Shown in pieces: positions 1-27,227 of a DNA stretch of 32,741 nt. Positions within the stretch are counted from its first letter, which is position 1; every line of letters starts with the position of its first letter. A program made the translations under genes and the position numbers. The stretch comes from Candidatus Omnitrophota bacterium (lineage in GTDB: Bacteria; Omnitrophota; Gorgyraeia; Tantalellales; Tantalellaceae), in the NCBI GenBank assembly GCA_016783605.1, contig JADHWG010000014.1, positions 1-32,741 of the forward strand, read 5' to 3'. The notes beneath the pieces were generated by a model. It worked only from the letters and a program-made list of their open reading frames with translations, had not been told where the DNA came from and made no database searches.

Positions 1-3000
1 AGTATATCCCGCTGAAACTTACCGTGCCTGAAGATACTTGCTCGGTCAGAACCTCGGAGGGTTGTAAAGCCGTAGCCGCGCCGGCGGTGGCGGACAACGT
101 AATTTGAGATGTTGAATCGCCGGTTATTATGTTGCCGTATTGGTCTTGAACCTCTACAGTCGGCTGAGGATTAAACGGCGCCGAAGCAATAGCGTCCATT
201 GCCCCTGTTGGAACCGTGAAGCCGAGTTTACTCGCCGAATCCGTAGTTACGGTTATGTCACCGGTCGCGTCATCGGTCGCTATCGCGTGGGCGGCGGTTA
301 TGGTTCCGACTCCGGTATTGTTTAATGCCGGTTCAAACGTAACGCTTGAAGCGGAAGTTGTAGATAGATCGCCCTCGGTAAGGGTTCCGGTTACGCCCCA
401 GGTTACTGTCGCGTTATTGAGGTACGCATCTCCCGAGGTGTAAGCAACGGCGTAAAGGGTTAAGGTATCATGATTGGCGATGAGAGAATCAGTTGTTATT
501 TCGCTTCCCTCGCCGCCCGCCGCGTCTCGTATAAGAATATGGCCGTCTCCTGGAAGGTTTACGTCAAAGGTATTAGAAACGTCGTCTTCCATTGTATTGC
601 CGCAAGAGTCCTTCGCGCCGGTTATGCTGATATGACACTCTCCGGCTACAGAAGACAGTAGTGTAGTAGTACCTTCCCAAAACGTAGGCTCGGCGTCCTG
701 ATAACCGTTGGTATAGCCCTCTCCGGTTTTAGCGACTATTGTAGCGGTGGTATACGGATCGCTGATGCCGTATTTTATCGTGGGGGCGGTTGCCGTGTCC
801 ATATCCTCGCTGAAGGTTATGGTAAAATCTGTTTCAGTTTCGGCGGGCACAGGGCTCACCGGATCTAAAACCACGCTTGAAACTGTCGGCAGTACGCTAT
901 CTAAGGTGGCGGTAATATCAAAGGCCGCGGTTTCACCGGCTAGGGTGAAGGTAATAACGAAAGTATCGGAGGTTTTGCTGGTATACATGGAGTATTTGTT
1001 CGTATTGGTGGCAGGAACCAGAGGGTCCGGCCATGTGCCGTAAGTTTCGGCATCTGACTTCCCTTGATCCGCAACACCTGTCGTATCGTAATAGATTTTA
1101 GTATTGGCATTATCCCCCCAAGCGGCAAGGACATATTCCGTACTGGCAGACAAACTCACGAGAGAGGAAAACTCACTTGTGTACCAACCAGAGGTTGACG
1201 CCGGAATCGACACCGCGTCTCCTGTTCCGTTATTTAAGCTAAGGTTGGAGTTATAAAGAGCGTATTTAGCCGCGTGAGCGGCACCCGCGTCATCGTTTCC
1301 CAGATAAGCGGTAATACTGCTTACGGTTTCTCCTGATGCGCCTTCCGTAAAAGCCGCGCCCTTGATCACGTTTTCCAAACTAATGGAACTCGCGCCTTGC
1401 GTATCATACCCGAACGTAGGGTCAACAATAACCGGATAAGCCGCGTTGTCCAGCCACTTCCGGTCGATGGTGATCGTAATAGTGCCACTCCCACGCTTCT
1501 GTCCCTCATCCTGAGAAACAGCCCCTTCGTCATCCTGAGCCGCAACCCCTTCGTCATCCTGAGTCGCAACCCCTTCGTCATCCTGAGGAGCAATCCCCCC
1601 GTCATCCTGAGGAGCAATCCCCCCGTCATCCTGAGGAGCTCTGCGACGAAGGACCCCACCCTTTTTCACCTTGCGGGTGGAATCCACTCCCACTTCACCA
1701 CTCACCACCGAATGCTCTATCTTCAAAACCCCCCAAACCCAATCCCCATTTGCGTCTATGATTTTCGGCCGATACACATGAAACGCCTTCCCCGCCTTGT
1801 AATTACCCCCCTGCTTGCTTTCGTGATAGACCGCGTAGGAACCAACAACCTCCTCGGGACGCGCCGCGCCCTGAGCTATTTCTTCTTTACTGAGGGGGCC
1901 TTGATAGTAAAACACCAGCCCCTCCGTTTCTATCGGCAGACTAACCACGTTGGAATCGGGAATCTCCTTAAAAACAACTTCAAACTCAACACCACCGCTT
2001 TCGTTGATGACAAACGTCGAATCAACTTCTTCCCGGCTCTTTTTATAAAAACTGCTCCCTATCTCCGGTGAATCCCAATCTATTTTGCCCGCGTTCCGAG
2101 TTACAGATTTTTTCTCCCGTTTTATCTTATTATCCGGAAATTCCACGCTCAGCGAACTTTCTTCTCCCCATCGCTTTATCTTCGCGTGAGGTCTAAACTC
2201 CATAGTCTCAAAGTCCCCAATTTCAGTTTCGTCTTTTCCGAACATAATTTTGTATCGCTTTTTAAGATTGCGTTTTTCTTCTTCTGTCGGAGTGAACTCA
2301 ATAACTACGGTTCCCGCGCCGCCTCTTGTCGCGCCAGAACCTCCGTTCGCGCTAATTACGCCGTCATAAGTCCGCACGGCTGTTTTGACATAAATCCGCC
2401 CGCCGCCGCCGGCACCGCCCGCGCCGTCAACGTATCCTAACCCGGATTCTTCCACTTCACTCCGTTCAGTGTCAGAATGACGAGAAAAACCGTCATCTCC
2501 CCCATCCGCCGTAATATTTCCCGACCCGTCCAAAACCCCCGTATCTATCAAAATGCTGCCGCCCGCGCCGCCGCCCGCGCCTGCCACGCCGTCCGCGCCG
2601 TCAACCGCGATATCCCCTATCACGGTGAGTTTCCCCGGAACAACAAATCTCACAGCGCCGCCACCCGCGCCGCCGGTCGCGCCGTCAACAACACCACCAC
2701 CACCAGACCCAAAATCAACAGGGTCAAGAGAAGACCCATAACGTATCCCGCCGGAACCGGCATTATTGTCTCCCGCGCCGCCCGCGCCGCCATACCCCGC
2801 GCCGCCCGCGCCCGCGTCTTGATTTCCCGGCTTGCCTCTACCGACACCTTCGCCCGCCGCGCCGCCCGCGCCGCCGGAGAAACCCTTCCCGCTCGCCGAA
2901 ATTAACGCGCCTTCCTCGACAACGAGATTGGTAGCGGCCACCGTCACAGCGACTCCCTGAACGGAAGAATCAATTGTAAGCGCCACGCCGGTTTGAATGG

Positions 3001-3223
3001 TGAGCGTCCCCGTAACTTCCATGTCCGAAGTCCACGTCGTGTCTTCCATAATAGTTACGTCGGTAGGACTGGCAAACCCAACTAAAACTTTGTCAGCCTG
3101 GAAGAATAACGAACACGTCACCAGAAACAAGGTCAGGACAAGCGTCCCGACAATGACACCCAGCGTCACTTTCCCTTGAAAGTCCGGCAGCCCAATTCTA
3201 ATTTTTTTATTATAGGTCTTCAT
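1..3223 (-). CDS. Giant secreted Gly-rich/Ig-like surface protein, C-terminus beyond window (missed by ORF track)
   Basis: Reading the minus strand from the ATG at 3223 gives an uninterrupted frame of 1074 codons to base 1, with no stop, which probably explains its absence from the ORF track. AGAGG lies about 8 nt before the ATG. Residues about 17-42 form one hydrophobic segment (signal peptide or anchor). Residues about 100-290 are Gly/Ala-rich with a beta-helix look (GGAGGAGG runs). About 310-520 is a charged unrecognised domain, ending in a YPVIVDPTFGY-type motif near 590. From about 730 onward the protein looks like Ig-like/Big domains (ITFSEDMD, VQDQYGN). It is likely an exported adhesin-like protein; its ligand is unknown. 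Two stretches are translated dispersed repeats (separate entries). The leader carries a c-di-GMP riboswitch. I am sure of the frame and unsure of the role. Confidence 0.85.
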   Translation of the reverse strand, partial: MKTYNKKIRIGLPDFQGKVTLGVIVGTLVLTLFLVTCSLFFQADKVLVGFASPTDVTIMEDTTWTSDMEVTGTLTIQTGVALTIDSSVQGVAVTVAATNLVVEEGALISASGKGFSGGAGGAAGEGVGRGKPGNQDAGAGGAGYGGAGGAGDNNAGSGGIRYGSSLDPVDFGSGGGGVVDGATGGAGGGAVRFVVPGKLTVIGDIAVDGADGVAGAGGGAGGSILIDTGVLDGSGNITADGGDDGFSRHSDTERSEVEESGLGYVDGAGGAGGGGRIYVKTAVRTYDGVISANGGSGATRGGAGTVVIEFTPTEEEKRNLKKRYKIMFGKDETEIGDFETMEFRPHAKIKRWGEESSLSVEFPDNKIKREKKSVTRNAGKIDWDSPEIGSSFYKKSREEVDSTFVINESGGVEFEVVFKEIPDSNVVSLPIETEGLVFYYQGPLSKEEIAQGAARPEEVVGSYAVYHESKQGGNYKAGKAFHVYRPKIIDANGDWVWGVLKIEHSVVSGEVGVDSTRKVKKGGVLRRRAPQDDGGIAPQDDGGIAPQDDEGVATQDDEGVAAQDDEGAVSQDEGQKRGSGTITITIDRKWLDNAAYPVIVDPTFGYDTQGASSISLENVIKGAAFTEGASGETVSSITAYLGNDDAGAAHAAKYALYNSNLSLNNGTGDAVSIPASTSGWYTSEFSSLVSLSASTEYVLAAWGDNANTKIYYDTTGVADQGKSDAETYGTWPDPLVPATNTNKYSMYTSKTSDTFVITFTLAGETAAFDITATLDSVLPTVSSVVLDPVSPVPAETETDFTITFSEDMDTATAPTIKYGISDPYTTATIVAKTGEGYTNGYQDAEPTFWEGTTTLLSSVAGECHISITGAKDSCGNTMEDDVSNTFDVNLPGDGHILIRDAAGGEGSEITTDSLIANHDTLTLYAVAYTSGDAYLNNATVTWGVTGTLTEGDLSTTSASSVTFEPALNNTGVGTITAAHAIATDDATGDITVTTDSASKLGFTVPTGAMDAIASAPFNPQPTVEVQDQYGNIITGDSTSQITLSATAGAATALQPSEVLTEQVSSGTVSFSGIY
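1505..1672 (-). repeat. In-frame dispersed-repeat insertion inside the giant surface protein
   Basis: This stretch has the CGTCATCCTGAG core in a roughly 24-bp tandem array of about six units. It ends in the GACGAAGGACCCCACC tail that is seen in intergenic copies. The frame stays open on the minus strand and encodes APQDDGGI/ATQDDEGV-type octapeptides, about 45 residues in all, between two unrelated domains. The same DNA in the other frames creates the shadow ORFs at 1366-1659 and 1397-2071. Confidence 0.85.
2445..2483 (-). repeat. Second in-frame dispersed-repeat arm in the giant protein
   Basis: The arm containing TTCCACTTCACTCCGTTCAG, found repeatedly between genes elsewhere, sits inside the Gly-rich domain. 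It is read as RHSDTERSEVEES, a charged 13-residue island in an otherwise Gly/Ala-rich stretch. The flanking Gly-rich sequence resumes in the same frame. Confidence 0.8.
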
Positions 3224-3676: not shown

Positions 3677-3755
3677 TTCCGGCAGCCTGACAATCCCGCG
3701 TTTCACAGGACTCATAGCTTTGCGCCCTCACATTACTGTAAGTTTGCCTTTTTCG
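3677..3755 (-). ncRNA. Cyclic-di-GMP-I (GEMM-I) riboswitch, copy 1
   Basis: The minus strand has the hallmark order: GGCAAAC, a stem CUUACA/UGUGAG closed by a GUAA (GNRA) loop, GGGCGCAAAGC, a second stem AGUCCUG/CGGGAUU, and closing GGCUGCC pairing back to GGCA. This matches the GEMM-I layout. It lies between a promoter (3788-3816) and a terminator, upstream of the giant surface gene. Two further copies (19.1 and 21.4 kb) show compensatory loop and stem changes. Confidence 0.88.
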
Positions 3756-3787
3756 TTTTATACAAAGAACATCGTAATCACCCTTTA

Positions 3788-3830
3788 AGTATACATTAAA
3801 ATGCCAAGCCTGGCAAGTGCCAGGCACTTT
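3788..3830 (-). promoter_or_regulatory. Sigma-70-type promoter with AGTGCCTGGCACTT palindrome (copy 1)
   Basis: On the minus strand TTGCCA (3811-3816) and TATACT (3788-3793) are separated by exactly 17 nt. The palindrome AGTGCCTGGCACT overlaps the upstream edge of the -35 box. The predicted start lies about 25 nt before the riboswitch. Confidence 0.75.
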
Positions 3831-10869: not shown

Positions 10870-10889
10870 AATTTGCTATTTTACCGCCC

Positions 10890-11400
10890 TCTCGTCGTTC
10901 TGCACCCACCCTCCGTCATTCTGAGCCCGAAGGGCGAAGAACCCCACCCTTTTTCACCTTGCGGGTGGCCCCCCACTCCCACCTCGTCATTCTGAGGAGG
11001 TACGACGAAGAATCCCATTCGTTAAGAACAGATCCTTCACTCCGCTCAGAGCCTGCCCTGAGCTTGTCGAAGGGATGACGAGCGTGGAGCTGGATAACGA
11101 GCGTAGAGCAGAATGACGAACAAGAGCGCACAGGATGACGAGCGTAGAGCTGGATGCGAGCGTGGCGCGTCATTCCACCCCACTCATTTCCACTCCCACC
11201 GTCGGCATCCTCAGGAGCCCCCCTTTTTTTCGTCATTCTGAGGAGCTTCATTTTTTTCGTCATCCTGAGGAGCTTGCGACGAAGGACCCCATCCTTTTCC
11301 ACCTTGCACGTTGTCCCCCACTCCCTCATCCTTTTCCACCTTGCACGTTGCAACACGGGCACATGCAATGTGCCCCTACATCCCACATCCCCCGCGTGTT
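10890..11400. repeat. Dispersed-repeat cluster inside the DGR, between TR and avd
   Basis: About 500 bp of CGTCATTCTGAG/CGTCATCCTGAG cores, with degenerate GATGACGAGCGTGGAGC variants near 11070-11170 and a GGGCACATGCAATGTGCCC palindrome near 11356. The track ORFs here (10916-11410 minus; 11135-11443 and 11154-11450 plus) are repeat translations. The TR transcript must cross this DNA if TR, avd and RT share a message. Confidence 0.88.
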
Positions 11401-11443
11401 TCAACTCCACGGTGGTGAAAATTTTGGCAGTATTGTTTCATAG

Positions 11444-11624
11444 TCGCTGAGGCAACGCACACTAAAGCCGTTGGCCTTATTGTTGTTATTCACGTTGCTG
11501 TTCGTGCTGTTGAAGTTCAGTTTGTACCCGTTGGTAGTACTGTTCTGGGTGCTGCTCCAGTAGTTGCCGTTGACACCTCTGTTGTTCAGCGCACCATCGC
11601 TGTTGTCGAGATAGCCAGCAGCAT
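11444..11624 (-). other. DGR template repeat (TR), 181 bp
   Basis: Matches the VR at 12435-12615 over 181 bp (offset 991) with 15 substitutions. Every one falls on an adenine of the TR sense (minus) strand and none on C, G or T. The TR is rich in AAC/AAT codons in the variable part and identical to the VR in the flanks. The upstream flank diverges immediately outside 11624. The ORF 11401-11727 reads through the TR and is not a gene. Confidence 0.97.
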
Positions 11625-11746
11625 ACCAGCCAATAAGTTGCCACTTTACATGTGAATACAAGCAGCTAAGCATGTATTCATCTTTTTTTTGCTTTCGGAA
11701 ATCGATATTCATTCCTAAAGCGGGCAACCCGACTATAATCCGCGCT

Positions 11747-12364
11747 CTAACCGAAACCGATAGTCTCGGTTACTCCGGCGTTTCCCATCCCTGCCAAATC
11801 TTTTTGTAATCGCGTAACAAACTGCATAGTTTCTATAAGAGTATTGTTTGCAACTTGGTAAGTCCGCAGCTTTTGAATAATCTCAATTTCTTTTACATCT
11901 AAACGTTTTGCATGTTCCCTTTTTTCGTCATTCTGAGGAGCTCCCCCACTCGTCATCCTGAGCCCACTCCCCCTCGTCATCCTGAGCCCGAAGGGCGAAG
12001 GACCCCACCCATTTCCACCTTGCACATTCGCCCCCACTCCCCCCACCTGCTTTTGCCAGTTTTCGTAACTGCCGTTAGCGGTCATTCCCGATATGATAAC
12101 TTTTTTTTCACCTTCATCGCTGATGCCATAGCCCTTTTCTAATGCTTTTTTCTTCACTTTTGTCAAGCTTTGCTCGGGAAAACCGCAGTAGTAGACATAT
12201 TCATTCACCTTTTTTACCCACTTTTTGCGCACTTTGTAAGAAAAAAGAGACGTTACCATAAACATCGCGGAGCGATTATACGCCCGAAAAAACATCCCTT
12301 CTTTCAACAAATAAACGGCATTTTTATTCCTCAATTCCTGCTCTATTATTTCCCTTACGGTCAT
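11747..12364 (-). CDS. DGR-associated MutS-domain-I-like accessory protein, 205 aa, carrying an in-frame repeat
   Basis: Lies between the target gene and the TR, where DGR accessory genes are found. The N-terminal half (TVREIIEQELRNKN, then VYLLKEGMFFRAYNRSAMFMV) resembles the mismatch-recognition domain I of MutS (a LFRxGDFYE-like segment). MutS-like accessory proteins are known in some DGRs; the role is unproven. About 43 residues in the middle are translated dispersed repeat (GPSPFGLRMT-type), after which a helical C-terminus resumes (EIEIIQKLRTYQVANNTLIETMQFVTRLQKDL). I start at the ATG at 12364 because GAGAGG lies 7 nt upstream; the track start at 12418 runs through a hairpin. Fair confidence in the family, good confidence that it is a gene. 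Confidence 0.75.
   Translation of the reverse strand: MTVREIIEQELRNKNAVYLLKEGMFFRAYNRSAMFMVTSLFSYKVRKKWVKKVNEYVYYCGFPEQSLTKVKKKALEKGYGISDEGEKKVIISGMTANGSYENWQKQVGGVGANVQGGNGWGPSPFGLRMTRGSGLRMTSGGAPQNDEKREHAKRLDVKEIEIIQKLRTYQVANNTLIETMQFVTRLQKDLAGMGNAGVTETIGFG
11918..12046 (-). repeat. In-frame dispersed-repeat insertion in the DGR accessory gene
   Basis: A full repeat unit (three cores plus the GAAGGGCGAAGGACCC and CACCTTGCACATTCG tail) interrupts the coding sequence between ENWQKQ and RLDVKEIE. The frame is kept, so the insert is a multiple of three and adds about 43 residues. Confidence 0.85.
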
Positions 12365-12396
12365 TAGCATTCCTCTCTTTTTCCAAAAAAAATCGA

Positions 12397-12409
12397 CCCG
12401 CTTCGCGGG
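12397..12409 (-). promoter_or_regulatory. Candidate DGR target-site hairpin downstream of the VR
   Basis: The minus strand reads CCCGC-GAA-GCGGG, a perfect 5-bp hairpin beginning 22 nt after the target stop codon and 25 nt past the VR edge. Hairpins or cruciforms just 3' of the VR aid target recognition in characterised DGRs. The stem and loop here are shorter than usual, so this is a candidate only. Confidence 0.45.
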
Positions 12410-12430
12410 ACATCTCAAATAATCAAATTG

Positions 12431-13501
12431 TCAATCGCTGAGGCAACGCACACTAAAGCCGTTGGCCTTACTGCTGTTATACACGTTGCTGCTCGTGCTG
12501 GCGAAGTACAGTATGTACCCGTAGGTAGTACTGCTCTGGGTGCTGCTCCAGTAGTGGCCGTAGACACCTCTGCTGTACAGCGCACCATCGCTGTCGTCGA
12601 GATAGCCAGCAGCATGTAACACTAAATCAGAGCCGAATGCCCAACTCCAAGTGGTTCCGACATCGACATTAGTATATTCACCGCTGGTTGGCAGGCGCCA
12701 GCCCGCGCCAAGTAGTAGCGCGCAGGGATCAAGAGCTGGATTCCAATTAGAAGCATTACTACCTGAATCAGTATAACTTTCACTTTCGTTAATGGAAGTG
12801 ATAGTCCATGCCGGAGACGGCCCGACAGCGTATCCTTGTTTTCGGTTAAACTGCCAATACCAACCCGCGGAAGCGGCAGTAGCATCATCAACCGCGGTTG
12901 CCTGCTGGGTCGCGCCGAGGTTTCGGGTGATCCAGCACTTTTCAGCTCCCGAAATGGATGTGACTACGGTTCCGTACGTAATGTCTACCGTGACAGGCGA
13001 AATACCATCGCCGGCGGTGTGGCTAACAGTGATAGGGTCTCCGGGGGCCCACACATACTCGCCCGCCGTAAGCGTTACCGTCAAGGTCTGCTCTCCTTCG
13101 GCCGTGGTAGAGCTTGGCGCGGTAAATTGCAGATCAAACGTCTGTCCCGCCGCCGCGGTTAAACTTGCAAGTTCGATTCCACTGCCTACGTTGGTAATAG
13201 CGTCCGACCAACTGCCCGAGGCGTCGTGTTTTAGCACAAAAATGTCCGCCCCCGCACCGGCACCCGGACTCAAGGAGGCACCAGTCACCTTGATATAGAC
13301 TGTTGACGTCACATCACCCTCGTTGGTCGCGGTAAAGGTGTCACCTGTTGTCGTCCTCGCGAGACTCATCCCCACTGTCCCTATTGCCCACGGACCGCCG
13401 GTAATCGACACCGCCCGCCCCGCGTAAGCCGTGGCAGAGACTGCGAAAACAAAGACCAACCCCGTCAATCCCATTTTTATTACCCTATTGAACAGCTTCA
13501 T
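12431..13501 (-). CDS. DGR target: secreted protein with Fib_succ_major/C-type-lectin-like variable domain, 356 aa
   Basis: An exported protein diversified by the DGR. A signal peptide (ending near SATAYAG) is followed by a beta-rich Thr/Ser/Gly region (about 30-190) that is probably a stalk or display domain. The C-terminus (about 195-356) matches the Fibrobacter succinogenes major paralogous type: CWITRNLGATQQ, GWYWQFNRKQGY, DPC...GAGWRLPTSGEY, GHYWSSTQ and KANGFSVRCLSD. That fold is related to C-type-lectin domains that tolerate variability. The last 60 codons are the VR; 14 residues differ from the TR translation, mostly Asn to Tyr or Ser. GGGGGTG precedes the ATG. The ligand is unknown. 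Confidence 0.95.
   Translation of the reverse strand: MKLFNRVIKMGLTGLVFVFAVSATAYAGRAVSITGGPWAIGTVGMSLARTTTGDTFTATNEGDVTSTVYIKVTGASLSPGAGAGADIFVLKHDASGSWSDAITNVGSGIELASLTAAAGQTFDLQFTAPSSTTAEGEQTLTVTLTAGEYVWAPGDPITVSHTAGDGISPVTVDITYGTVVTSISGAEKCWITRNLGATQQATAVDDATAASAGWYWQFNRKQGYAVGPSPAWTITSINESESYTDSGSNASNWNPALDPCALLLGAGWRLPTSGEYTNVDVGTTWSWAFGSDLVLHAAGYLDDSDGALYSRGVYGHYWSSTQSSTTYGYILYFASTSSNVYNSSKANGFSVRCLSD
12435..12615 (-). other. DGR variable repeat (VR), 181 bp
   Basis: The 3' end of the target gene. The 15 differences from the TR lie between 12471 and 12595: in the sense direction eight A to G, six A to T or C and the remainder in a doubly changed codon, none at non-adenines. The last 36 bp (12435-12470) are identical to the TR and GC-rich, fitting the initiation-of-mutagenic-homing end. 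The stop codon lies just beyond. Confidence 0.96.
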
Positions 13502-15527: not shown

Positions 15528-17999
15528 TTATTCCACTATCAAAGACCCGCCTTTACCGGGGTCAAATCCTTCGCCGCCTTTAACGCATATCGTTCCTTTT
15601 ATTCCTCCACTCGCGGCTTTGAGATGAATTCTTCCGCCGCCTCCGCCACCTCCCGTTAGGCCGCCGTAACCGCCTTCGGCGGTTATCACGGCTTTATCGC
15701 TAAAAAACTCGTCAGCCGTTAAGTATACGCTTCCGCCCGCGCCGCCCGCGGATTCATATTCGGTTTCATTACCGAACATTTTTCTGTCTTCTCCGTTGGC
15801 GGTAAGGTATCCGTTAATTTCAAAATCGCCGCGCGCTTTAAGTGTGATGCTTCCGCCGCCGGCTCCGCCCGCGGCATACCATCCGCCACTTCCGCCGGAA
15901 CCCAGATCGCTCGGCGCTCTTTTCGCGCCGTATCTTTCCATGTCTATGTCCGCGTCTTCTTTTTGCGTCTTGGCACGGCCGCCTTTACCTCCGTAAGACC
16001 CGCCTAAAGCGCCCATATCGAGATATTTTCCGGCGCCTCGGCCTTTCGCGTCTGCACGGATGTTTCCGCCGGCGTATCCTTTTTCATCAGCCGTTATTAC
16101 GCCTTCCGGTTTTATCGTAATGTTCTCGGCGGAGAAATTTAGTACGTATGCCTTGACGTCTTCGTTTTCTCTGTGCGTCAATATGCCGCCTCTTTCCACC
16201 ATAAGATCTCCCACGATCGACTGCGGGTTATTGTTTGCCTGGATAAGTTCCCCGCCTTTACGAACGACTATGTCTCCTGAAGCGGGGTTTATGTTGTGAA
16301 TAAGAATGAGTTTGGACGTATGCTCGCCCGTGCCGTCACCGATTATGAGTTTTTTGAAACTGATGCCGCCGGAAGTTTTAATTGTTTCGTTGCCGGCGAT
16401 GGTTACAACCGCGGAAAGATCTTGATACGCTCTTTCTTCGGCGATAATTTCTTCCGCCGTCGCGGGAGCCTCTTCGCCTTCCGAGAGAGAGACCAGCCCT
16501 TCATACGGTTCAACCGTGAACGCGCCGTCCGACAAATCATATATTTTGCTTTCGTTCGCGTCGGAAATCTTGATCACGAGATCGTCCGCCTCTAAATCGC
16601 TTGGTATCGTCCACGCGTAAATTCCGCTGTTTTCTGTTTTTGTAATTTTTGTGAATGTTTTTAGACTGGATTTTTTTGCGTATTCAAGGGTTACCGGATA
16701 GAAAAAATCGTATTCCAGCGCGGACCACATAATGTCTTTCCTGGTTCCCGCCTGCCAAGTTTCGCCGCCATTGGGCACTATCATGGTGATAATCCCGGGG
16801 GCGTAATCCAGTTCCAAAAGTTCCAGTTCTGATTCCTGTATTCCGCGTTCAAATCTTACTTTCGCTTTAGGCTGTTTCCCCGTCTTGAAATCTTCGAGTG
16901 AAACGTAGTAATATGTGTCCGCGTCGCAGTCTTTTTTATACGTTAGTCCGTTATCCGCCGAAACGTCCACGGAAATTTCATCGCCTTCCCATGCCACGAC
17001 GAGTATACGTATATCAAACGCCTCCAATAGAGGCGAGGTTACGTATTGCCCGTTATCGTATCCGTCCAAAAGTACGACGTTTCCAAGCGCATTCAAACCT
17101 ACCTTCTCAAAAGACGGCGTTATCGCCTCTTCCTGTTTGGGCTCATCGCTTGTGTCGGGTTCGGGCACAACTTCTACAAATTCCTTAAGCCATCCGCCGT
17201 TTTCATCCTGTTCACTAAAAACATCTTCAACGCGCGAGGCGTCTTTCGCGTCCACATTTCCGTAATACATATAGATGCTGACCCCGGCGGCGGGTATCTC
17301 GGGCACTTTTACCCAGATCTTCGCGGTACGCGCCGGGCTCACGCCCGTCATCGTCTCACGATAATAGGCGAGTATCGTTTCCCCGTCCGCCGCGGTAAAC
17401 CGGATATCTTCCAGACCTTTCAGCGTATTGCCCAGACAATTGACGTCGTAGTCTTCCGCTTCGAGCGTCTCTCCGACCGCGATATCGACTTGATAGTTAT
17501 ACAGCGTCCGTGAGGAGCCGGTAATGTGAATTTTTTTTCTGTATTTGAGTCCCGAAAGCTGAGGTTCTCCGAATGTAGCGACAATACCGCTTGTATCCGC
17601 ATAGGAAATCTTAACCTCGCTCAAGGTGCTTCCCGTGCCAAGCTGTGCGCGCCACTTCAGGCGGTCGCCTTTCGTGAATCCTGCCTTGAGCGGCACACCG
17701 TTAATCACTTTGTAATAGTGACTTCCCCCGTCAACGCTTACTTCAAGCGTAACCTCGCCGGTAAACACCCAGTTGGCGGTTATCTCTTCTACGAGCCCGT
17801 CCGTTGGCACACTCTTATAAACGACATAGGTGGACCCTGAAATCGCGGGCAAAGAAAAGTCCCCGTTTCCGTCAGCTCGCCAAAAAATAGACGATGTATA
17901 CGTTTTTATCTCCGCCTCCGCCGAAATCGGCCACGCCTGAACAAAAGCGAAAACCAAGATTATCAGTCCCATTTTTATTTTTCCTCTGAGCGTCTTCAT
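15528..17999 (-). CDS. Secreted DUF2341 / Gly-rich surface protein, 823 aa
   Basis: Signal peptide (IKMGLIILVFAFVQAWPISAEA), then beta-sandwich modules. A DUF2341-type domain (about 150-255) has LKYRKKIHITG, DIRFTAADGETILAYYRE and VSIYMYYGN. An acidic Pro/Glu linker follows, then an Ig-like domain with IVPNGGETWQAGTRKDIMWS. The C-terminal Gly-rich region (about 640-823; SYGGKGGRA, GGAGGGSI, GGGGGGGRIHL) resembles the Gly-rich part of the giant protein at 1-3223. The start is the ATG at 17999 with AGAGGTGA upstream; the track used a GTG three codons earlier. It lies 31 nt after the RAYT-like gene, so it is probably co-transcribed under riboswitch copy 2. Likely surface attachment; ligand unknown. 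Confidence 0.88.
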   Translation of the reverse strand: MKTLRGKIKMGLIILVFAFVQAWPISAEAEIKTYTSSIFWRADGNGDFSLPAISGSTYVVYKSVPTDGLVEEITANWVFTGEVTLEVSVDGGSHYYKVINGVPLKAGFTKGDRLKWRAQLGTGSTLSEVKISYADTSGIVATFGEPQLSGLKYRKKIHITGSSRTLYNYQVDIAVGETLEAEDYDVNCLGNTLKGLEDIRFTAADGETILAYYRETMTGVSPARTAKIWVKVPEIPAAGVSIYMYYGNVDAKDASRVEDVFSEQDENGGWLKEFVEVVPEPDTSDEPKQEEAITPSFEKVGLNALGNVVLLDGYDNGQYVTSPLLEAFDIRILVVAWEGDEISVDVSADNGLTYKKDCDADTYYYVSLEDFKTGKQPKAKVRFERGIQESELELLELDYAPGIITMIVPNGGETWQAGTRKDIMWSALEYDFFYPVTLEYAKKSSLKTFTKITKTENSGIYAWTIPSDLEADDLVIKISDANESKIYDLSDGAFTVEPYEGLVSLSEGEEAPATAEEIIAEERAYQDLSAVVTIAGNETIKTSGGISFKKLIIGDGTGEHTSKLILIHNINPASGDIVVRKGGELIQANNNPQSIVGDLMVERGGILTHRENEDVKAYVLNFSAENITIKPEGVITADEKGYAGGNIRADAKGRGAGKYLDMGALGGSYGGKGGRAKTQKEDADIDMERYGAKRAPSDLGSGGSGGWYAAGGAGGGSITLKARGDFEINGYLTANGEDRKMFGNETEYESAGGAGGSVYLTADEFFSDKAVITAEGGYGGLTGGGGGGGRIHLKAASGGIKGTICVKGGEGFDPGKGGSLIVE

Positions 18000-18030
18000 A
18001 ACTCTCACCTCTGTTTAGTTCGTCAATTCG

Positions 18031-18960
18031 TCAGTTTTCCGATTTTTCCACTTCACGTCTCTTTCTCTCTCGATCCAATCTTTTTGTCGTAGCGCGATAG
18101 TATGACACTAAATCCGCGCGATACTTCGCTTCCAGATCCTGTTTAAGCGCGTCTTCTCTCTCCTGAAACATATCTTCCACTTTCCCTTCCACTTTTTGAC
18201 TCGCTGCGAAATAGTAGTATGTGACCGCGCTTAAAGCGATGATCACTGCCGCGCCCGTCACAATAAAGACCTTCTGAAACCGGCTTCGCAGAATCATCCT
18301 TTTTCCCGTCAGGTTTTCCGCCTTATTCTCTTTTTCGAATTCATCTTTAATCCGCCGGACAAATTCCGCCGACCCGATAATCCCGCTTCTCTGCACTTTT
18401 TTATCCAACGCTTTTAGATCCGAAGGCTCGGCTTCATCTACGAATCTTTTGTACAACCTCACCTGTTCGCCGGGAATAACGGAAAACTTCTCCAACACTT
18501 CCTTCGCGTCCCCTTTCGCCTCCAAATAATGCGAATAACTCGACCACCGGTAGTCTTCGGCTTTGGAGCCGGCGTTTAATTTCTCGGGAACAAGATGAAT
18601 ATAGCGCGTCAATTCCGTCAAGTAGGTATCTTTTTCAACAACTGCCGCCTTAAACCGTCCTTTAAAAAGATGTCCGCTTCTTTCGTAGCGGCGGTTGTAA
18701 TATTTTGTGTATGTCGAATTCATCGCGTGCATAATTTCCGAAATCGTCGTTTCCGGCACAAGTTCGAGCAAAAGATGGATGAATTCCGGCATAAGCACGT
18801 ATGAAAAAAGTTTGAAGCCGTATTTTTCCTTGTATCTGGAGAGTAAGTCCACGTACGCGTCTTTATCCGCGTCGGCGCGAAAAAGCAAATTCACCTGACT
18901 ACCGTACGCGGTAACCAAGTACACCCCCTGCTCAATGTGTATTCTCGGAAGTCTTGCCAT
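18031..18960 (-). CDS. RAYT-like Y1-transposase-domain protein with membrane anchor, 309 aa (paralogue A)
   Basis: Residues about 1-130 match the Y1 (IS200/REP-associated tyrosine transposase) domain: FKLFSYVLMPEFIHLLLEL, RSGHLFKGRFKAAVVEKDTYL, LTRYIHL. The catalytic-type Tyr (Y120) is present, but the HUH pair is broken: F60-I-H62 where the family has H-x-H. A transmembrane helix follows (about 231-253, VFIVTGAAVIIALSAVTYYYF), then a highly charged, probably coiled-coil tail. This suggests a domesticated nucleic-acid-binding membrane protein rather than an active transposase. GGAG precedes the ATG by 8 nt. Upstream: promoter, c-di-GMP riboswitch and terminator. Downstream, 31 nt on: the DUF2341 surface protein. 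Confidence 0.9.
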   Translation of the reverse strand: MARLPRIHIEQGVYLVTAYGSQVNLLFRADADKDAYVDLLSRYKEKYGFKLFSYVLMPEFIHLLLELVPETTISEIMHAMNSTYTKYYNRRYERSGHLFKGRFKAAVVEKDTYLTELTRYIHLVPEKLNAGSKAEDYRWSSYSHYLEAKGDAKEVLEKFSVIPGEQVRLYKRFVDEAEPSDLKALDKKVQRSGIIGSAEFVRRIKDEFEKENKAENLTGKRMILRSRFQKVFIVTGAAVIIALSAVTYYYFAASQKVEGKVEDMFQEREDALKQDLEAKYRADLVSYYRATTKRLDRERKRREVEKSEN

Positions 18961-19024
18961 CTCTACATCTCCTTCTTATCAATCCCGCGGGACCACATCT
19001 CATGTGCCCAATCAAAAGTCACAC

Positions 19025-19058
19025 ACCAACCCGTAGGGGCACATTGCATGTGCCCCAC
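19025..19058. repeat. REP-like palindrome in the leader of RAYT paralogue A
   Basis: CCGTAGGGGCACATTGCATG followed by TGCCCC forms a near-perfect hairpin between the terminator and the start of the RAYT-like gene. The same palindrome is tandemly arrayed at 19570-19880. Confidence 0.85.
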
Positions 19059-19096
19059 AAAAAAAAACGCCCGGTAACTTACACGGGCGTTTTTAA
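19059..19096 (-). terminator. Intrinsic terminator of c-di-GMP riboswitch copy 2
   Basis: Minus strand: ACGCCCG...CGGGCGT stem followed by nine Ts, immediately after the aptamer. The loop contains UGUAAGUU, complementary to AACUUGCA of the aptamer P2 strand, and CGCCC is complementary to GGGCG of the aptamer; together these form a candidate antiterminator. Confidence 0.87.
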
Positions 19097-19098
19097 AT

Positions 19099-19178
19099 TC
19101 TCTCGGCAACCAGACAATCCCGAATTCCCCCGGGACTCACGGCTTTGCGCCCTTACATCACTGCAAGTTTGCCATTTT
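19099..19178 (-). ncRNA. Cyclic-di-GMP-I (GEMM-I) riboswitch, copy 2
   Basis: Minus strand: GGCAAAC, stem CUUGCA/UGUAAG with GUGA (GNRA) loop, GGGCGCAAAGCC, stem AGUCCCG/CGGGAUU, closing GGUUGCC. This is the best match of the three to the GEMM-I pattern. Compared with copy 1 (GUAA) and copy 3 (GCGA), the loop stays GNRA and the stem bases co-vary. It controls the RAYT-like/DUF2341 operon. Confidence 0.9.
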
Positions 19179-19219
19179 CTTTTTATACATGTCAAAGGTC
19201 TCTTTCCTGCCACTCCTAA

Positions 19220-19260
19220 AGTATACACCATATGGGGAAGCCTGGCAAGTGCCAGGCACT
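19220..19260 (-). promoter_or_regulatory. Promoter with AGTGCCTGGCACT palindrome, copy 2
   Basis: Minus strand TTGCCA (19243-19248), 17 nt, TATACT (19220-19225). The palindrome (19248-19260) abuts and overlaps the -35 box. It drives the riboswitch copy 2 transcript. Confidence 0.75.
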
Positions 19261-19261
19261 C

Positions 19262-19430
19262 GCCGTTTGAATCTTTCCGATTTTCAGCACCCTCATTAGT
19301 AAATACACCACCGTGGATTTTGCACTCCTTGTGCAACTCCCGTTCCCAAATTTCACCATGAACCAAATTGCTTCCTGCTACCTGTCGAATTTATGCAACT
19401 CCTTTAAATATAAAGAGTGCCAGTCATACC
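19262..19430 (-). repeat. Upstream part of the duplicated RAYT leader (copy A)
   Basis: Upstream of the promoter, the segment running from CTTTAAAGGAGTT and AAATTCGACAGGTAGCAG to the promoter is shared with 21530-21690. The shared leader unit is therefore close to 400 bp. ORFs 19079-19366(-) and 21360-21641(-) look like homologues only because of this duplication. Confidence 0.7.
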
Positions 19431-19569
19431 CCACAGCTAATTTTTCTCAATTTTTACAGTTCCCTTTACCCCTTTTCGCCCGACAATAACCTTCAACTTC
19501 TCTACATCTATTCCCCCAAAAACATCCCCACCGTGACACTCCACAACTTTATTTACCTTTTTTCTTTCT

Positions 19570-19880
19570 AATCCCCACGTCCCCTCTTACCCATACGGCC
19601 ACATTGCCCGCACCCCAATTCAATCTCCACATATCCAAAATCCTACGGCCACATCACATGCGCCCTCCCAATTCAATCCCCACGTACCCATTCACCCGTA
19701 CGACCACATTGCATGTGCCCGACTTCAATCCCCACGTACCCATTCACCCGTACGACCACATTGCATGTGCCCCCAATTCAATCTCCACGTATCCCCTTTA
19801 CCCGTAGGGGCACATTGCATGTGCCCAAATTCAATATCCACGTATCCCCTTACCCGTAGGGGCACATTGCATGTGCCCTA
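19570..19880 (+). repeat. Tandem array of about six 52-53 bp units carrying a REP-like palindrome
   Basis: Each unit reads AATTCAATCYCCACGTAYCC, then TTYACCCGTA and GGGGCACATTGCATGTGCCC. The leftmost units are degenerate (left arm GTACGACC or CTACGGCC) and the rightmost two are near-identical. No variable spacers occur, so it is not a CRISPR. The ORF 19604-19807(+) is an artefact of the array. Confidence 0.85.
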
Positions 19881-19944
19881 ATAACACCTATCGATATAAA
19901 ATTCAAAAAATTTTCCTCTGCCAACGTAATCGTAAGACATCAAG

Positions 19945-19985
19945 AGTATACACAACCATTCCACCCCTGACAAGTGCCAGGCACC
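19945..19985 (-). promoter_or_regulatory. Orphan promoter/palindrome copy 4
   Basis: Minus strand GGTGCCTGGCACTTGTCA then 17 nt and TATACT (19945-19950). It has the same architecture as the riboswitch promoters, but no GEMM aptamer and no ORF follow within 300 nt. Confidence 0.55.
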
Positions 19986-20049
19986 TTTTTCCATAACTCC
20001 TCTATTCCCCCCTTCACAACACACTACCACCATATACACCAACACACCA

Positions 20050-20130
20050 ACCCGTAGGGGCACATTGCATGTGCCCACGAGGTTACCCGCAACCTTGTAA
20101 TAACGGGCACATGCAATATGCCCCTACGAG
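20050..20130. repeat. Two REP-like palindromes in opposite orientation
   Basis: CCGTAGGGGCACATTGCATG at 20051 and its reverse (GGGCACATGCAATATGCCCC) at 20104 flank a short spacer. Nothing else is recognised in the surrounding gene-free stretch 19881-20220 apart from promoter copy 4. Confidence 0.8.
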
Positions 20131-20319: not shown

Positions 20320-21237
20320 CTATTCAACCTCCCGTCTCCTCCGTTCCCGATCCAGCCTCTTCGTCGTCGCGCGATAATACGACACCAGATCCGCCCGGTA
20401 TTTCGTTTCCAAATCTTGTTTAAGCGCCGCCTCTCTCTCCTGAAACATGTCTTCCACTTTGTCTTCCACTTTTCGGCTCGCCGTGTAGTAGTAATATGTA
20501 ACCGCGCTTAAAGCGACGATCACGGCTGTGCCGGTTATAATAAAGACCTTCTGGAACCGGCTTCTAAGAACCAACCTTTTCTTCGTCACCTTTTCCGTCC
20601 GGTTCTCTTTCTCAAATTCGCCCCTAATTTGCTCAATGAACTCCGCCGACCCGATGATCCCGCTTTTCTGCACCATTTTGTCCAGCGCTTTCAGATCCGA
20701 ATCTTTGGCTTCTTCAACAAACCTTTTGTACAACCTCACCTGTTCTTCAGGAATAACGGAAAACTTCTCCAACACTTCTTTCGCGTTCCCTTTCGCCTCC
20801 AGATAATGCGAATAACTCGACCACGCGTAATCTTCGGCTTTGAATCCCGGATTTCCGATACCGGGAGCAAGATGAATGTAACGCGTCAAATCCGCCAAAT
20901 ATGTGTCTTTCTCAACAACCGCCGCCTTGAACCTCCCCTTGAAAAGATGACCGCTTCTCTTGTAGCGGCCGTTGTAATATTTCGTATAAGTCGAATTGAC
21001 AGCGTGCATAACTTCCGAGATCGTAGTTTCAGCCATAAGTTCGAGCAGAAGATGTATGAGAGACGGCATAAGCACGTATGAAAAAAGCTTAAACCCGTAT
21101 CGCTCTTTGTATTTGGTCAACAGATCCACATAAGCATCCCGGTCAGGATCGCCGCGAAAAAGCACATCCTCCTGCCCGCCGCGCGTGGTGACCATATACA
21201 ACCCCTGCTCAACATGTATTCTCGGAAGTCTCGGCAT
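20320..21237 (-). CDS. RAYT-like Y1-transposase-domain protein with membrane anchor, 305 aa (paralogue B)
   Basis: Close paralogue of 18031-18960 along its full length. Y1 domain: FKLFSYVLMPSLIHLLLEL, RSGHLFKGRFKAAVVEKDTYL, LTRYIHL. The first His of HUH is replaced by Leu (L-I-H) while the Tyr is kept. A hydrophobic helix (VFIITGTAVIVALSAVTYYYY) and a charged tail follow. I start at the ATG at 21237 (GGAG upstream); the track used a TTG two codons earlier. It has its own promoter, c-di-GMP riboswitch and strong terminator. Unlike paralogue A, no surface-protein gene follows; REP-like palindromes lie downstream instead. Confidence 0.88.
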   Translation of the reverse strand: MPRLPRIHVEQGLYMVTTRGGQEDVLFRGDPDRDAYVDLLTKYKERYGFKLFSYVLMPSLIHLLLELMAETTISEVMHAVNSTYTKYYNGRYKRSGHLFKGRFKAAVVEKDTYLADLTRYIHLAPGIGNPGFKAEDYAWSSYSHYLEAKGNAKEVLEKFSVIPEEQVRLYKRFVEEAKDSDLKALDKMVQKSGIIGSAEFIEQIRGEFEKENRTEKVTKKRLVLRSRFQKVFIITGTAVIVALSAVTYYYYTASRKVEDKVEDMFQEREAALKQDLETKYRADLVSYYRATTKRLDRERRRREVE

Positions 21238-21324
21238 CTCCAACTCTCCTTTTTTTCAAAATTCTAACCAAAATTCCACCTCGTAGATGGAATCCCTAAA
21301 TCCCTCTACCAACCCCCAATAACC

Positions 21325-21362
21325 AAAAAAAAACGCCCATGCAAGTTGCACGAGCGTTCTTA
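21325..21362 (-). terminator. Intrinsic terminator of c-di-GMP riboswitch copy 3
   Basis: Minus strand AACGCTCGTGCAA/TTGCATGGGCGTT, a 13-bp stem with two G-U pairs, followed by nine Ts. It sits between the aptamer and paralogue B. Confidence 0.9.
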
Positions 21363-21366
21363 TATT

Positions 21367-21444
21367 CTCTCGGCAACCAGACAATCCCGATTTTCCCGGG
21401 ACTCACGGCTTTGCGCCCTTACATCGCTGTAAGTTTGCCATTTT
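21367..21444 (-). ncRNA. Cyclic-di-GMP-I (GEMM-I) riboswitch, copy 3
   Basis: Minus strand: GGCAAAC, perfect stem CUUACA/UGUAAG with GCGA (GNRA) loop, GGGCGCAAAGCC, stem AGUCCCG/CGGGAUU and closing GGUUGCC. It precedes a terminator and RAYT paralogue B. Confidence 0.9.
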
Positions 21445-21485
21445 CGTTTTGTGTATGTCAAAGTACGTTTTTCTACTACCCCTAA

Positions 21486-21527
21486 AGTATACATCATATA
21501 GGGAAGCATGGCAAGTGCCTGGCACCT
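21486..21527 (-). promoter_or_regulatory. Promoter with GTGCCAGGCAC palindrome, copy 3
   Basis: Minus strand TTGCCA (21509-21514), 17 nt, TATACT (21486-21491), with the palindrome just upstream. It drives riboswitch copy 3. Confidence 0.75.
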
Positions 21528-21639: not shown

Positions 21640-22090
21640 ACTGCTACCTGTCGAATTTATGTAACTCCTTTAAGCATAAAGAGTGCCAGGCACGTCCCAG
21701 AGCTGATCCCAACCAATTTCCCCTGTTTTCTCTGCCCATTTTTGCCTGACAATTACATACAATTCCCACCCATTCATCCATCAAAGAACCGCCAAAAAAG
21801 TCACTTCACAACTTTATCTACCTTTTTTATCTTTAATGTCCGTAGTGCCACAATCCGGACAACAAATTCGGCGTTAATTTGAAATACGTAGGGGCACGGC
21901 ATGCCGTGCCCTTTCTGTCACACAAATCACCGACTCCATGAGGGCACGGCGTGCCGTGCCCCTACGAGATTAAACTGACCAAAAATCTGTAACGCATAAC
22001 TTGCTAAGCAAAACGCCACACAATACCTATCACTAAGAGTATACCCAACCACATCAAGCCTGGCAAGTGCCAGGCACTTTTTTATTTTTC
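21640..22090. repeat. Gene-free stretch with palindromes and an orphan promoter copy
   Basis: Holds the upstream shared leader segment (about 21650-21690), two GTAGGGGCACGGCATGCCGTG-type palindromes in opposite orientation (about 21889-21912 and 21941-21966), and an orphan promoter copy. No gene is seen. Confidence 0.7.
22038..22078 (-). promoter_or_regulatory. Orphan promoter/palindrome copy 5
   Basis: Minus strand AAGTGCCTGGCACTTGCCA, 17 nt, TATACT (22038-22043). No aptamer or gene follows within 300 nt; the palindromes at 21.9 kb come first. Confidence 0.6.
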
Positions 22091-22311: not shown

Positions 22312-22364
22312 TTTTTGCAAGGACTTTTTGTATAAATTTTACACTTTTTGGCACGACTTTTATG
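22312..22364. repeat. 53-bp direct repeat, left copy (DR1)
   Basis: Differs from 23736-23788 by one base. It overlaps the last codon and stop of the ATPase gene. Confidence 0.9.
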
Positions 22365-23709
22365 GGCTGGAGGAGACATCAGACTCATTTTTCATAAAAT
22401 CTCCGACTAAATACAACGGATACCGATGAACCTTGTTAATGGGATCGATGAAAAGATTATTCGCGCTAAAAATCGTTCTGTATTTTGACTTATATTTTCG
22501 AGCAAAAACCTTTATGCTCTTTGCCTGGGTTACCCCCCCCGATTTTATTTCTATCGGCAAAATCTCTCCATTTATTTCTCTTAAGAATTCTACCTCAGCC
22601 GATCCTTCTTTCCAGCAATACAGCTCCTTTCCGCTTGAACAAAGAAATTCTTGAGCGGCAAAATTTTCCGCGAAGTAACCTTTGTAAGAACCGTATCCAT
22701 AGTCCATAATAGATTTTGGAGGTAAACCACTCAAAGCTCCCAATAGACCGACATCAAAAACATATAGCTTGAAACTGTTTTCCGTAGTATGCGCGGAAAA
22801 AGGAAGTAGTCCGCTATTGACCATCCGCACTTTTATAACAAGACCGGCGGAAACCAGCCAATCAATGCTCCCGGCTAATTTTGAATACCTTTGAATTCCG
22901 GGGATAACCCCTTTAAACTTAAACTTGCCCGCGGAACCGTCTTGCTCCTTAGCTAATTGCGCGGGAATGTTCTGCCATAATCTTTCAACATGCATCGCGT
23001 TTTGTTTACCGGAATGTTTTGCTATGTCAGCGATATACGCCAATAATAAATTATCCTGTTTTTCTCTCGTTTTTTCTAGAGCAATAAATACATCATCCTT
23101 GTATTCTTTAAACGTGCTAACAATTTCCGGAAGGCCTCCTGTTACAAAATATATTTTTAATTGTTCCCAAAGGCGAATATGAACGATCTGGGGAATTATC
23201 TCGGTTTTCTTGCGATCTTGGAGAAATTCAAATGATTTTATCTCACCGATCCCTTCCAAAAACTCCTCAAATGACAAGGGAAACATATTTAAAAATTCAA
23301 CTTTCCCGACAGGAAAAGATTCATCGGATAACTGGATCCCCAGCAACGAACCGGCCGCGCAAATGGCTAGTTTCGGCAATTCTTCTTGAAAATATTTTAA
23401 ACTGGTTAAAGCTCTTGGAATATTTTGAATTTCGTCAAAAATAATAAGATCGTTTTTTATATCGATAGCGGTGTTGAGATAAAAGCTTAAATCACGCAGT
23501 ATGTTTTGAGGAATAAGGTCTTCAGCGAAAATATCCACTAATTGCTTATGTTTTTCAAAATTCAAATAATGCACTTGTGAAAAACATTCTTTTCCGAATT
23601 TTTGGAGAATATATGTTTTTCCAACCTGACGCGCCCCCTTTAGAATAAGGGGCTTTCGATCTTTTTTATTTTTCCATTTTGTTAGTTTATTCCAAATATT
23701 TCTTTTCAT
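22360..23709 (-). CDS. AAA-type ATPase with DUF4143-like C-terminus, 449 aa
   Basis: Member of the AAA_14/DUF4143 family. Walker A is GARQVGKT and Walker B LIIFDEIQ, followed by the sensor-like AAGSLLG and the family FPVGKVEFLNMFPLSFEEFLEG. The C-terminus carries the nuclease-like VEFLREINGEILPIEIKSG segment (E...EIK, PD-D/ExK-like). The family is common in accessory DNA; the function is not established. I start at the ATG at 23709 (the track used a TTG two codons earlier). There is no Shine-Dalgarno, and the -10 box ends six nt before the ATG. It is a homologue of the plus-strand gene at 27228-28538. It lies between 53-bp direct repeats and palindromes, suggesting acquisition or duplication. 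Confidence 0.93.
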   Translation of the reverse strand: MKRNIWNKLTKWKNKKDRKPLILKGARQVGKTYILQKFGKECFSQVHYLNFEKHKQLVDIFAEDLIPQNILRDLSFYLNTAIDIKNDLIIFDEIQNIPRALTSLKYFQEELPKLAICAAGSLLGIQLSDESFPVGKVEFLNMFPLSFEEFLEGIGEIKSFEFLQDRKKTEIIPQIVHIRLWEQLKIYFVTGGLPEIVSTFKEYKDDVFIALEKTREKQDNLLLAYIADIAKHSGKQNAMHVERLWQNIPAQLAKEQDGSAGKFKFKGVIPGIQRYSKLAGSIDWLVSAGLVIKVRMVNSGLLPFSAHTTENSFKLYVFDVGLLGALSGLPPKSIMDYGYGSYKGYFAENFAAQEFLCSSGKELYCWKEGSAEVEFLREINGEILPIEIKSGGVTQAKSIKVFARKYKSKYRTIFSANNLFIDPINKVHRYPLYLVGDFMKNESDVSSSP

Positions 23710-23715
23710 AATCAA

Positions 23716-25716: not shown

Positions 25717-26880
25717 TCATGCTTTTACTCCAAATACTCCCTTCATACCACCCAAAATCTCATCAAATGGCACGACATCAACTTGCTTGTGAATCGAATA
25801 GCGACGACTCCCGGGATAAATCACGGCGATGCGTTCCAGATTCAAATATTCAAGTGCCGTTCGAATAGATGTCGTCATTGTCGGGGCATCCTGGCGTTTT
25901 ATTTCTACGCCATATATCCGTCCGCCTTTTAATAATATGAGATCAATTTCTGCTCCTTGATGTGTCGCCCAATAGTAAACATCTTGCGGTTCTACCCAGC
26001 GAATGATTTCCTCTATAACGAATCCTTCCCACGATGCGCCACATACAGGATAACGGGGAAGCTCTTGTTCCGAATTAATTCCAATCAACGCGTGCAAAAG
26101 TCCAGTATCGCGAATATAGATTTTTGGCGATTTCACCTGACGCTTTTTGATGTTAGCATACCACGGCTGAAGCTGGCGAATCATAAATAGTCCCGTCAAA
26201 ATATCTAAATATTTACGAATTGTGGGATGAGTTAGTCCAAGAGATGAAGCAATGGGCGAAGCATTCCATATTCTCCCGTGATTATGAGCTAACATGATCC
26301 AAAATTTATGAAGCGTCACAACCGACACATCAAGCCCCTGCGCTTGACGGAGATCTCGTTCTAGAAATGTTCGAATGAAATTAACACGCCATGCTAAGCT
26401 ATCCTCATCGTTCTTGGCGAGAAACGACAGCGGAAACCCTCCTCTGTTCCAAAGACGCGTTTGTTTCTTTTTCCCCACCTCGGACAACCCAAACCCCTCC
26501 ATTTCGATCAATTCCAGTCGTCCGGCTAACGATTCTGAAGATTGTCTTAATAAATCCTGCGAAGCACTTCCTAAAATCAAAAATTTGGCAGGCAACGGCA
26601 CGCGATCCAACAATACGCGAAAAACCGGAAAAACATCCGGGCGGCGCTGAACCTCGTCAATCACAACAAGTCCCTTCAAATGCTCAAGAGCCGTTTTGGG
26701 AGCTTCAAATTCGATTAGCGTTGACGGATCTTCAAGATCAAAATAATTAGGCGAACGGATATCGACAAACTGCCGCGCCAAGGTAGTTTTACCGCACTGC
26801 CGCGCCCCCAATAAAGCCACAGCCTTGCTTCGATTAAGAGCTTTCTCAATACCCTTTTTATAATAAGCACGTTCAATCAT
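25717..26880 (-). CDS. AAA-type ATPase with DUF4143-like C-terminus, 387 aa
   Basis: Walker A LLGARQCGKTT, Walker B LVVIDEVQRRPDVFP, sensor region FLILGSASQDLLRQSSESLAGR, then the DUF4143-type half: SLGLTHPTIRKYLDILTGLFMIRQLQPWY, SPKIYIRDTGLLHALIGI, and a C-terminal nuclease-like GAEIDLILLKGGRIYGVEIKR. It belongs to a shorter subfamily than the other two ATPases here. There is no Shine-Dalgarno; the -10 box ends six nt before the ATG. Confidence 0.93.
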   Translation of the reverse strand: MIERAYYKKGIEKALNRSKAVALLGARQCGKTTLARQFVDIRSPNYFDLEDPSTLIEFEAPKTALEHLKGLVVIDEVQRRPDVFPVFRVLLDRVPLPAKFLILGSASQDLLRQSSESLAGRLELIEMEGFGLSEVGKKKQTRLWNRGGFPLSFLAKNDEDSLAWRVNFIRTFLERDLRQAQGLDVSVVTLHKFWIMLAHNHGRIWNASPIASSLGLTHPTIRKYLDILTGLFMIRQLQPWYANIKKRQVKSPKIYIRDTGLLHALIGINSEQELPRYPVCGASWEGFVIEEIIRWVEPQDVYYWATHQGAEIDLILLKGGRIYGVEIKRQDAPTMTTSIRTALEYLNLERIAVIYPGSRRYSIHKQVDVVPFDEILGGMKGVFGVKA

Positions 26881-27191: not shown

Positions 27192-27220
27192 TTGCTTTGT
27201 TGCCTTTTTTGGTGTATATT
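27192..27220 (+). promoter_or_regulatory. Promoter for a predicted leaderless ATPase mRNA
   Basis: TTGCTT (27192-27197), 17 nt, TATATT (27215-27220), then seven nt to the ATG at 27228. The ATG must therefore lie at or next to the transcription start. Confidence 0.7.
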
Positions 27221-27227
27221 GTTAGAT

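Follow-up and report, generated by a model that had tools for sequence, protein, structure and literature searches.

A c-di-GMP-I (GEMM-I) riboswitch stands in front of a membrane-anchored RAYT-fold protein (hereafter TM-RAYT, for its transmembrane (TM) helix) and a surface protein in the DNA analysed here, a 32,741-nt stretch of a Candidatus Omnitrophota bacterium (GCA_016783605.1, contig JADHWG010000014.1; "the window", at its full length). The parts, their order, their conserved linkage in relatives, the grouping of the TM-RAYTs in one clade, the loss of catalytic residues and the specificity of a palindrome, GTGCCAGGCAC, for these operons are all directly computed. We consider it reasonably probable, reading from sequence, that a domesticated REP/RAYT pair acts here from the membrane to autoregulate surface-protein operons under c-di-GMP control.

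On the minus strand from 19259 to 15528, unit 1 comprises in order a palindrome, promoter, GEMM-I aptamer, terminator, TM-RAYT gene and DUF2341 surface-protein gene, so that every element named in the preliminary description (promoter, GEMM-I, terminator, RAYT-like gene with TM helix, DUF2341 protein) is present. The palindromic site GTGCCTGGCAC, a candidate operator (19249..19259), abuts the -35 box with its centre at about -41. The sigma70-like promoter (19220..19248), read from the sequence, consists of TTGCCA (19243-19248), a 17-nt spacer and TATACT (19220-19225). Running RF01051 on the window, the check proposed for the aptamer call, gave full-length matches above the gathering score of 35 for the unit 1 aptamer (19102..19183; 60.2 bits, E=1.4e-9) and for a second copy (63.5 bits); the unit 1 aptamer scored 69 bits with our own covariance model. 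An intrinsic terminator hairpin with a U-run follows (about 19059..19091). TM-RAYT copy 1 (18031..18960, 309 aa; Y1_Tnp Pfam E=3e-14) has an N-terminal RAYT fold, a single, strongly hydrophobic TM helix (aa 231-249, 18214..18270, by hydropathy) and a C-terminal coiled coil. The next gene in the operon starts at most about 30 nt past the RAYT stop codon and encodes an 826-aa DUF2341 and Kre9/KNH-like Ig surface protein with a signal-like N terminus (15528..18008; DUF2341 E=2.3e-12).

At the ligand-specificity position of this aptamer, G marks the c-di-GMP type and A would suggest cGAMP. The position reads GGC in both window copies and is G in 42 of 47 TM-RAYT aptamers. Four of the 47 carry A instead (L115, L095, L120 and L180, L120 being a poor match), and these aptamers may prefer cGAMP. 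A terminator-like hairpin follows the aptamer in all 32 leaders examined; no consistent antiterminator emerged from folding, whether the terminator was included or left out.

Unit 1 has a tandem duplicate at a shift of about 2.27 kb. Unit 2, also on the minus strand, has a palindromic site at a promoter whose layout resembles that of unit 1 (21515..21525), the second GEMM-I aptamer (21369..21449), a terminator (21326..21357) and TM-RAYT copy 2 (20320..21243), which is 80% identical to copy 1 and more likely starts at the ATG at 21237 than at 21243. A third minus-strand unit has a palindromic site at a similarly laid-out promoter (3817..3827) and a c-di-GMP-I-GGC aptamer (3677..3757; RF03167, 63.7 bits), behind which an ORF for a large surface protein of at least 1074 aa (2..3223) runs off the contig end. 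The source genome is a 1.65-Mb MAG with five GEMM-I in total, three in the window and two elsewhere. An apparent complete diversity-generating retroelement (DGR) lies between two c-di-GMP-controlled surface-protein units (9297-13501), with a reverse transcriptase (RT, 9297-10493), bAvd (10486-10869), a template repeat (within 11401-11727) and a variable lectin-like protein (12431-13501); its 181-nt repeat shows 15 mismatches, all at template A. The window also holds three AAA_14/DUF4143 ATPases in 7 kb (22360-23715, 25717-26880 and 27192-28538).

Relatives were collected by searching 384 genomes of the class with the protein and 285 genomes of the phylum with a profile. RAYT homologues fell into two sets: full-length matches that include the TM region, at about 240-506 bits, and ordinary RAYTs at 213 bits or less, nearly all of which align only over the first ~220 residues. 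Sixty loci were fetched and scanned with a covariance model; of the 27 GEMM-I sequences behind it, only the two window copies came from TM-RAYT operons known at that point. A same-strand aptamer lay 92-300 nt upstream of 42 of the 47 distinct TM-RAYTs and 805 nt upstream of another (L110); with the same model, GEMM-I was found upstream of none of 19 complete RAYTs without a TM helix. The aptamer was also present in all seven full-length members fetched after the model had been fixed, weakly in one (L181, 30 bits); four of the seven came from outside the class. Counted per locus rather than per evolutionary event and uncorrected for genome kinship, as are the ORF and catalytic-residue counts below, GEMM-I precedes 52 of 56 TM-RAYTs including the two window copies, at 92-380 nt with one at 805. 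Since there are few GEMM-I per genome, chance would yield almost no such linkage. The four loci without an upstream aptamer include L109, whose aptamer is downstream, and L133, which encodes an aberrantly long protein. At the nearest relative, L076, a search for a degenerate aptamer found none even at E 10, and the palindrome sites persist there.

The linkage of GEMM-I, RAYT-like gene and surface protein first noted in the window is thus kept in dozens of genera, and an ORF of at least 1000 aa lies within 5 kb downstream at all 37 TM-RAYT loci with at least 6 kb of downstream sequence, compared with 1 of 11 other RAYTs. Neither outcome that would have counted against the preliminary description, a lack of RF01051 matches or a linkage confined to the window, was seen. 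We rejected the idea of a RAYT mobile element that generally carries GEMM-I, which is absent from all 19 RAYTs without a TM helix. GEMM-I as a marker of RAYTs was likewise rejected, because in the relatives the GEMM-I with the best scores stand before other genes, mostly secreted or pilin-like; the TM-RAYT operon is therefore one branch of a wider c-di-GMP regulon.

The downstream ORFs are giants: six with a stop codon span 4116-5971 aa and four extend past 6600 aa, some of the downstream genes ending at contig ends. They have signal-like N termini, and the two that were scanned hold Ig-like repeats, DUF2341, Laminin_G_3 and Kelch domains. The 826-aa protein of the window is built of DUF2341 and Ig modules common to these giants. 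The surface protein may be an adhesin. Many barrel-type loci (the outer-domain types are given below) have a small secreted protein between the RAYT and the giant. A multi-TM protein of up to ~770 aa sits between the small protein and the giant at L092, L094, L098, L103, L109 and L114. The coiled-coil-type giants of L135-L139 share a conserved C-terminal tail, NIANKPVTQTWFEFK, perhaps an anchoring or sorting signal.

The AF2 model of copy 1 (pLDDT 86) had as its top match among all PDB chains 4er8 (Foldseek E 1.3e-7, TM-score 0.74 on the target), which is TnpA_REP, the E. coli RAYT bound to a REP hairpin. The model of a barrel-type relative (pLDDT 90) also matched 4er8 (Z 16.3, rmsd 2.6 over 158 residues). 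The Y1 (IS200-like) fold of the window protein is thus given both by the Pfam match and by the fold match to 4er8, with which a profile alignment of copy 1 to 4er8 is consistent at a weak E-value of 0.42. In the 4er8 alignment F60-I61-H62 stands opposite the HUH motif, Y120 opposite the catalytic tyrosine Y115 (PMC8266576) and V124 opposite N119, the third metal ligand (PMC6006769). Copy 1 carries H60->F and N124->V with H62 and Y120 kept, and copy 2 carries H60->L and N124->A, so that by these positions the first His and the Asn, two of the four catalytic residues, are missing from both window copies. The HUH motif is accordingly degenerate in the window (FIH in copy 1, LIH in copy 2) and lost in 26 of 55 TM members; the Y---NP motif is degenerate too, with Tyr120 kept and Asn124 replaced by V or A. 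All four residues (H, H, Y, N) are intact in 21 of the 55 TM members and in 19 of 19 other RAYTs (Fisher p=1.3e-6 for an intact HUH plus Y, TM against other RAYTs), so some members may still cut DNA. The TM-RAYTs form one clade on one side of a branch with support 94/91, and the HUH+Y centre switched between intact and broken at least eight times on the tree. Six residues, S74, Y84, K86, G96, R102 and S141, are invariant in TM-RAYTs. The suggestion of a domesticated transposase is in keeping with this nuclease centre, degenerate in the window copies and repeatedly so in the clade.

TM helices were called by hydropathy, and positive-inside charge gives modest support for a cytoplasmic N terminus (34 of 55 members, with 9 ties). 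Behind the helix lies one of two types of outer domain, either a coiled coil (the window type, with the signature EKYRADMVSY.A..KRLE.EK) or an eight-stranded barrel. There are also stand-alone genes that encode the barrel-like domain behind a signal-like N terminus (L112 +1377, L182 +1248), and these point to a barrel outside the membrane. The outer barrel of L108 (10845-12110) matched the barrel of the Cap15 cyclic-dinucleotide receptor (7n35, Z 10.7), with avidins nearly as high (9-9.7).

We then turn to the palindrome, which marks TM-RAYT operons: a leader site between aptamer and start codon is present in 42 of 45 aptamer-bearing loci. The commonest 9-mers of the 300-nt leaders, GTGCCAGGC and pieces of AAAGTGCCAGGCAC, derive from it and occur in 33 of 53 leaders and at 2 loci elsewhere. 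With a motif picked by inspecting leaders and then counted, the palindrome and its variants gave 77 matches in 15.9 kb of leaders versus 7 in the flanks, which make up the other 488 kb of the loci. The 1.65-Mb genome has six exact copies of the palindrome, all inside the window. One copy lies 60-66 nt upstream of each of the three window aptamers, at the promoters; neither of the two GEMM-I elsewhere in the genome has one. Five of the six stand before a box resembling TTGCCA or TTGTCA and a TATACT, among them two further minus-strand copies with a similar promoter layout (19974..19984 and 22067..22077), behind which a search with filters off found no hidden aptamer. The remaining copy (21683..21693, minus strand) is without a recognisable promoter. 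The coiled-coil types that have both a promoter and a leader site carry the same variant at both (GTACCACGTAC twice in L080, L084 and L085; GTGCCACGCA twice in L099).

Across 368 genomes, most TM-RAYT genomes have few copies of the palindrome and some genomes have 25-138. In the multi-copy genomes of L127 and L193 it flanks a RAYT without a TM helix on both sides, as a REP does; at TM-RAYT loci it lies at the promoter or in the leader and as a rule does not border the gene on both sides. RAYTs that have this REP do not form a single clade, so the core may have been inherited from a shared ancestor, or it may be a target that RAYTs commonly use. REPs with this core form populations of 51-138 GTGCCWGGCAC copies in the genomes G037, G238 and G175. 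Separately, a GTAG-tagged REP, GTAGGGGCACATTGCATGTGCCC, recurs about nine times at 18965-20076 of the window, perhaps served by ordinary RAYTs elsewhere in the genome.

The palindrome is probably the binding site of the TM-RAYT, and a mechanism can be proposed on that basis. A REP/RAYT pair, that is a transposase and its palindrome, would have been domesticated in the phylum. Its RAYT fold would keep the hairpin-binding surface, often lose cutting and become tied to the membrane, and its REP would be retained as an operator or leader hairpin of the TM-RAYT's own operon. The c-di-GMP-I riboswitch with its terminator would gate transcription of the operon. The first product would be the membrane-anchored RAYT-fold protein, with a predicted cytoplasmic hairpin-binding domain, one TM helix and an outer coiled coil or eight-stranded barrel, and the later ones a small secreted protein (in barrel types) and the very large surface protein. 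By binding the GTGCCNGGCAC palindrome at the promoter, in the 5' leader or at both, the TM-RAYT would autoregulate its own operon and control related surface-protein operons. Surface-protein synthesis would thereby be coupled to c-di-GMP and probably also to the state of the envelope, which the outer domain might sense. Of the two roles offered for the window protein, regulation or assembly of the surface protein, the first is favoured by a palindrome that is specific to the clade and sits at promoters and in leaders. As for the direction of regulation, a promoter site centred at about -41, as in the window, would suit activation and repression alike. One mechanism may not fit all members, since the window has the site at its promoters and most relatives have it in the leader. 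Nor need the palindrome be an operator; it could be left over from REP flanking.

Because the site falls in the leader of most relatives, RNA binding stands as a rival. The RAYT domain would here bind a leader RNA hairpin (AAAGUGCCAGGCACUUU) of its own operon and either tether the very long mRNA to the inner membrane, so that the surface protein is exported as it is translated, or block translation. The palindrome's position between aptamer and start codon in the 42 of 45 loci fits this, as do its strand-specific flanks in the leader (AAAGTGCCA in 32 leaders), the binding of hairpins by RAYTs (4er8) and the huge size of the downstream proteins. However, the window and some other coiled-coil types have the palindrome ahead of the -35 box, outside the transcript, and we know of no RAYT that binds RNA; we regard mRNA tethering as unlikely. 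Less likely again is a mainly structural role in the envelope: the outer domain, coiled coil or barrel, would serve as anchor or chaperone for the surface protein, with the RAYT domain left as a vestige. The outer domains are indeed conserved, and one of them also occurs as separate secreted genes in the same operons, but the RAYT domain with its six invariant residues is the best conserved part of the protein, and a matching palindrome is conserved alongside it. That the TM-RAYT is still a selfish, active or recently active REP transposase, placed in surface-protein operons by chance or hitch-hiking, would suit the Y1 fold, the catalytic residues kept in 21 of 55 members and the palindrome's being a REP in some genomes, but is very improbable given an operon position fixed over dozens of genera, the mostly low palindrome copy numbers of TM-RAYT genomes and the repeated loss of catalytic residues in an otherwise conserved fold.

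The autoregulator reading can be set against several known systems. TM-RAYTs resemble TnpA_REP (PDB 4er8; PMC8266576, PMC6006769) in their N-terminal fold and in having the gene beside a palindrome, one that is shared with RAYTs of the same class that lack a TM helix. Unlike TnpA_REP, they have a TM helix and a predicted outer domain, have lost catalytic residues in most members and are accompanied by a palindrome that is mostly not multi-copy, with a riboswitch in front and a large surface-protein gene behind. The classification in a large survey of the RAYT family was drawn up from proteins whose HuH/Y core is complete, and membranes go unmentioned in the text (PMC6006769). In the open-access literature searched we found no RAYT-type gene downstream of GEMM-I and no paper linking RAYTs with riboswitches or membranes. 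That the whole REP/RAYT transposition pair was turned into a membrane-bound circuit, with a tethered, often catalytically dead sensor-regulator, the REP as operator or leader hairpin, a riboswitch in front and the synthesis of a giant protein set by both c-di-GMP and the envelope, seems to us an evenly balanced proposition. If true, it would provide what is to our knowledge the first membrane-anchored HUH/Y1 member and a bacterial case in which both halves of a mobile element, the protein and its recognition site, were co-opted for host gene control. Palindrome, riboswitch and regulator would also offer a handle on the regulation of very large surface proteins in uncultured bacteria, one that is testable in a laboratory host.

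Omnitrophota are known to encode giant ORFs, very long, with extracellular domains, some of them Laminin_G_3, and poorly understood (PMC10066038); the products described here are likewise very long proteins with extracellular domains, and c-di-GMP control is not mentioned in that paper. The leader agrees with the c-di-GMP-I riboswitch RF01051 in its full-length match, its c-di-GMP-type specificity base and the terminator behind it. Membrane-bound one-component regulators of the ToxR/CadC type have a cytoplasmic winged-helix DNA-binding domain, one TM helix and an outer domain. TM-RAYTs share with them the predicted order of nucleic-acid-binding domain, TM helix and outer domain, as well as a candidate site beside the promoter, and differ in having a RAYT fold instead of a winged helix. 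We know of no transposase-derived membrane regulator in the control of the large adhesins of Vibrio cholerae. What TM-RAYT operons do have in common with these adhesins, which are under c-di-GMP control (PMC6890996), is that c-di-GMP is linked to very large surface proteins.
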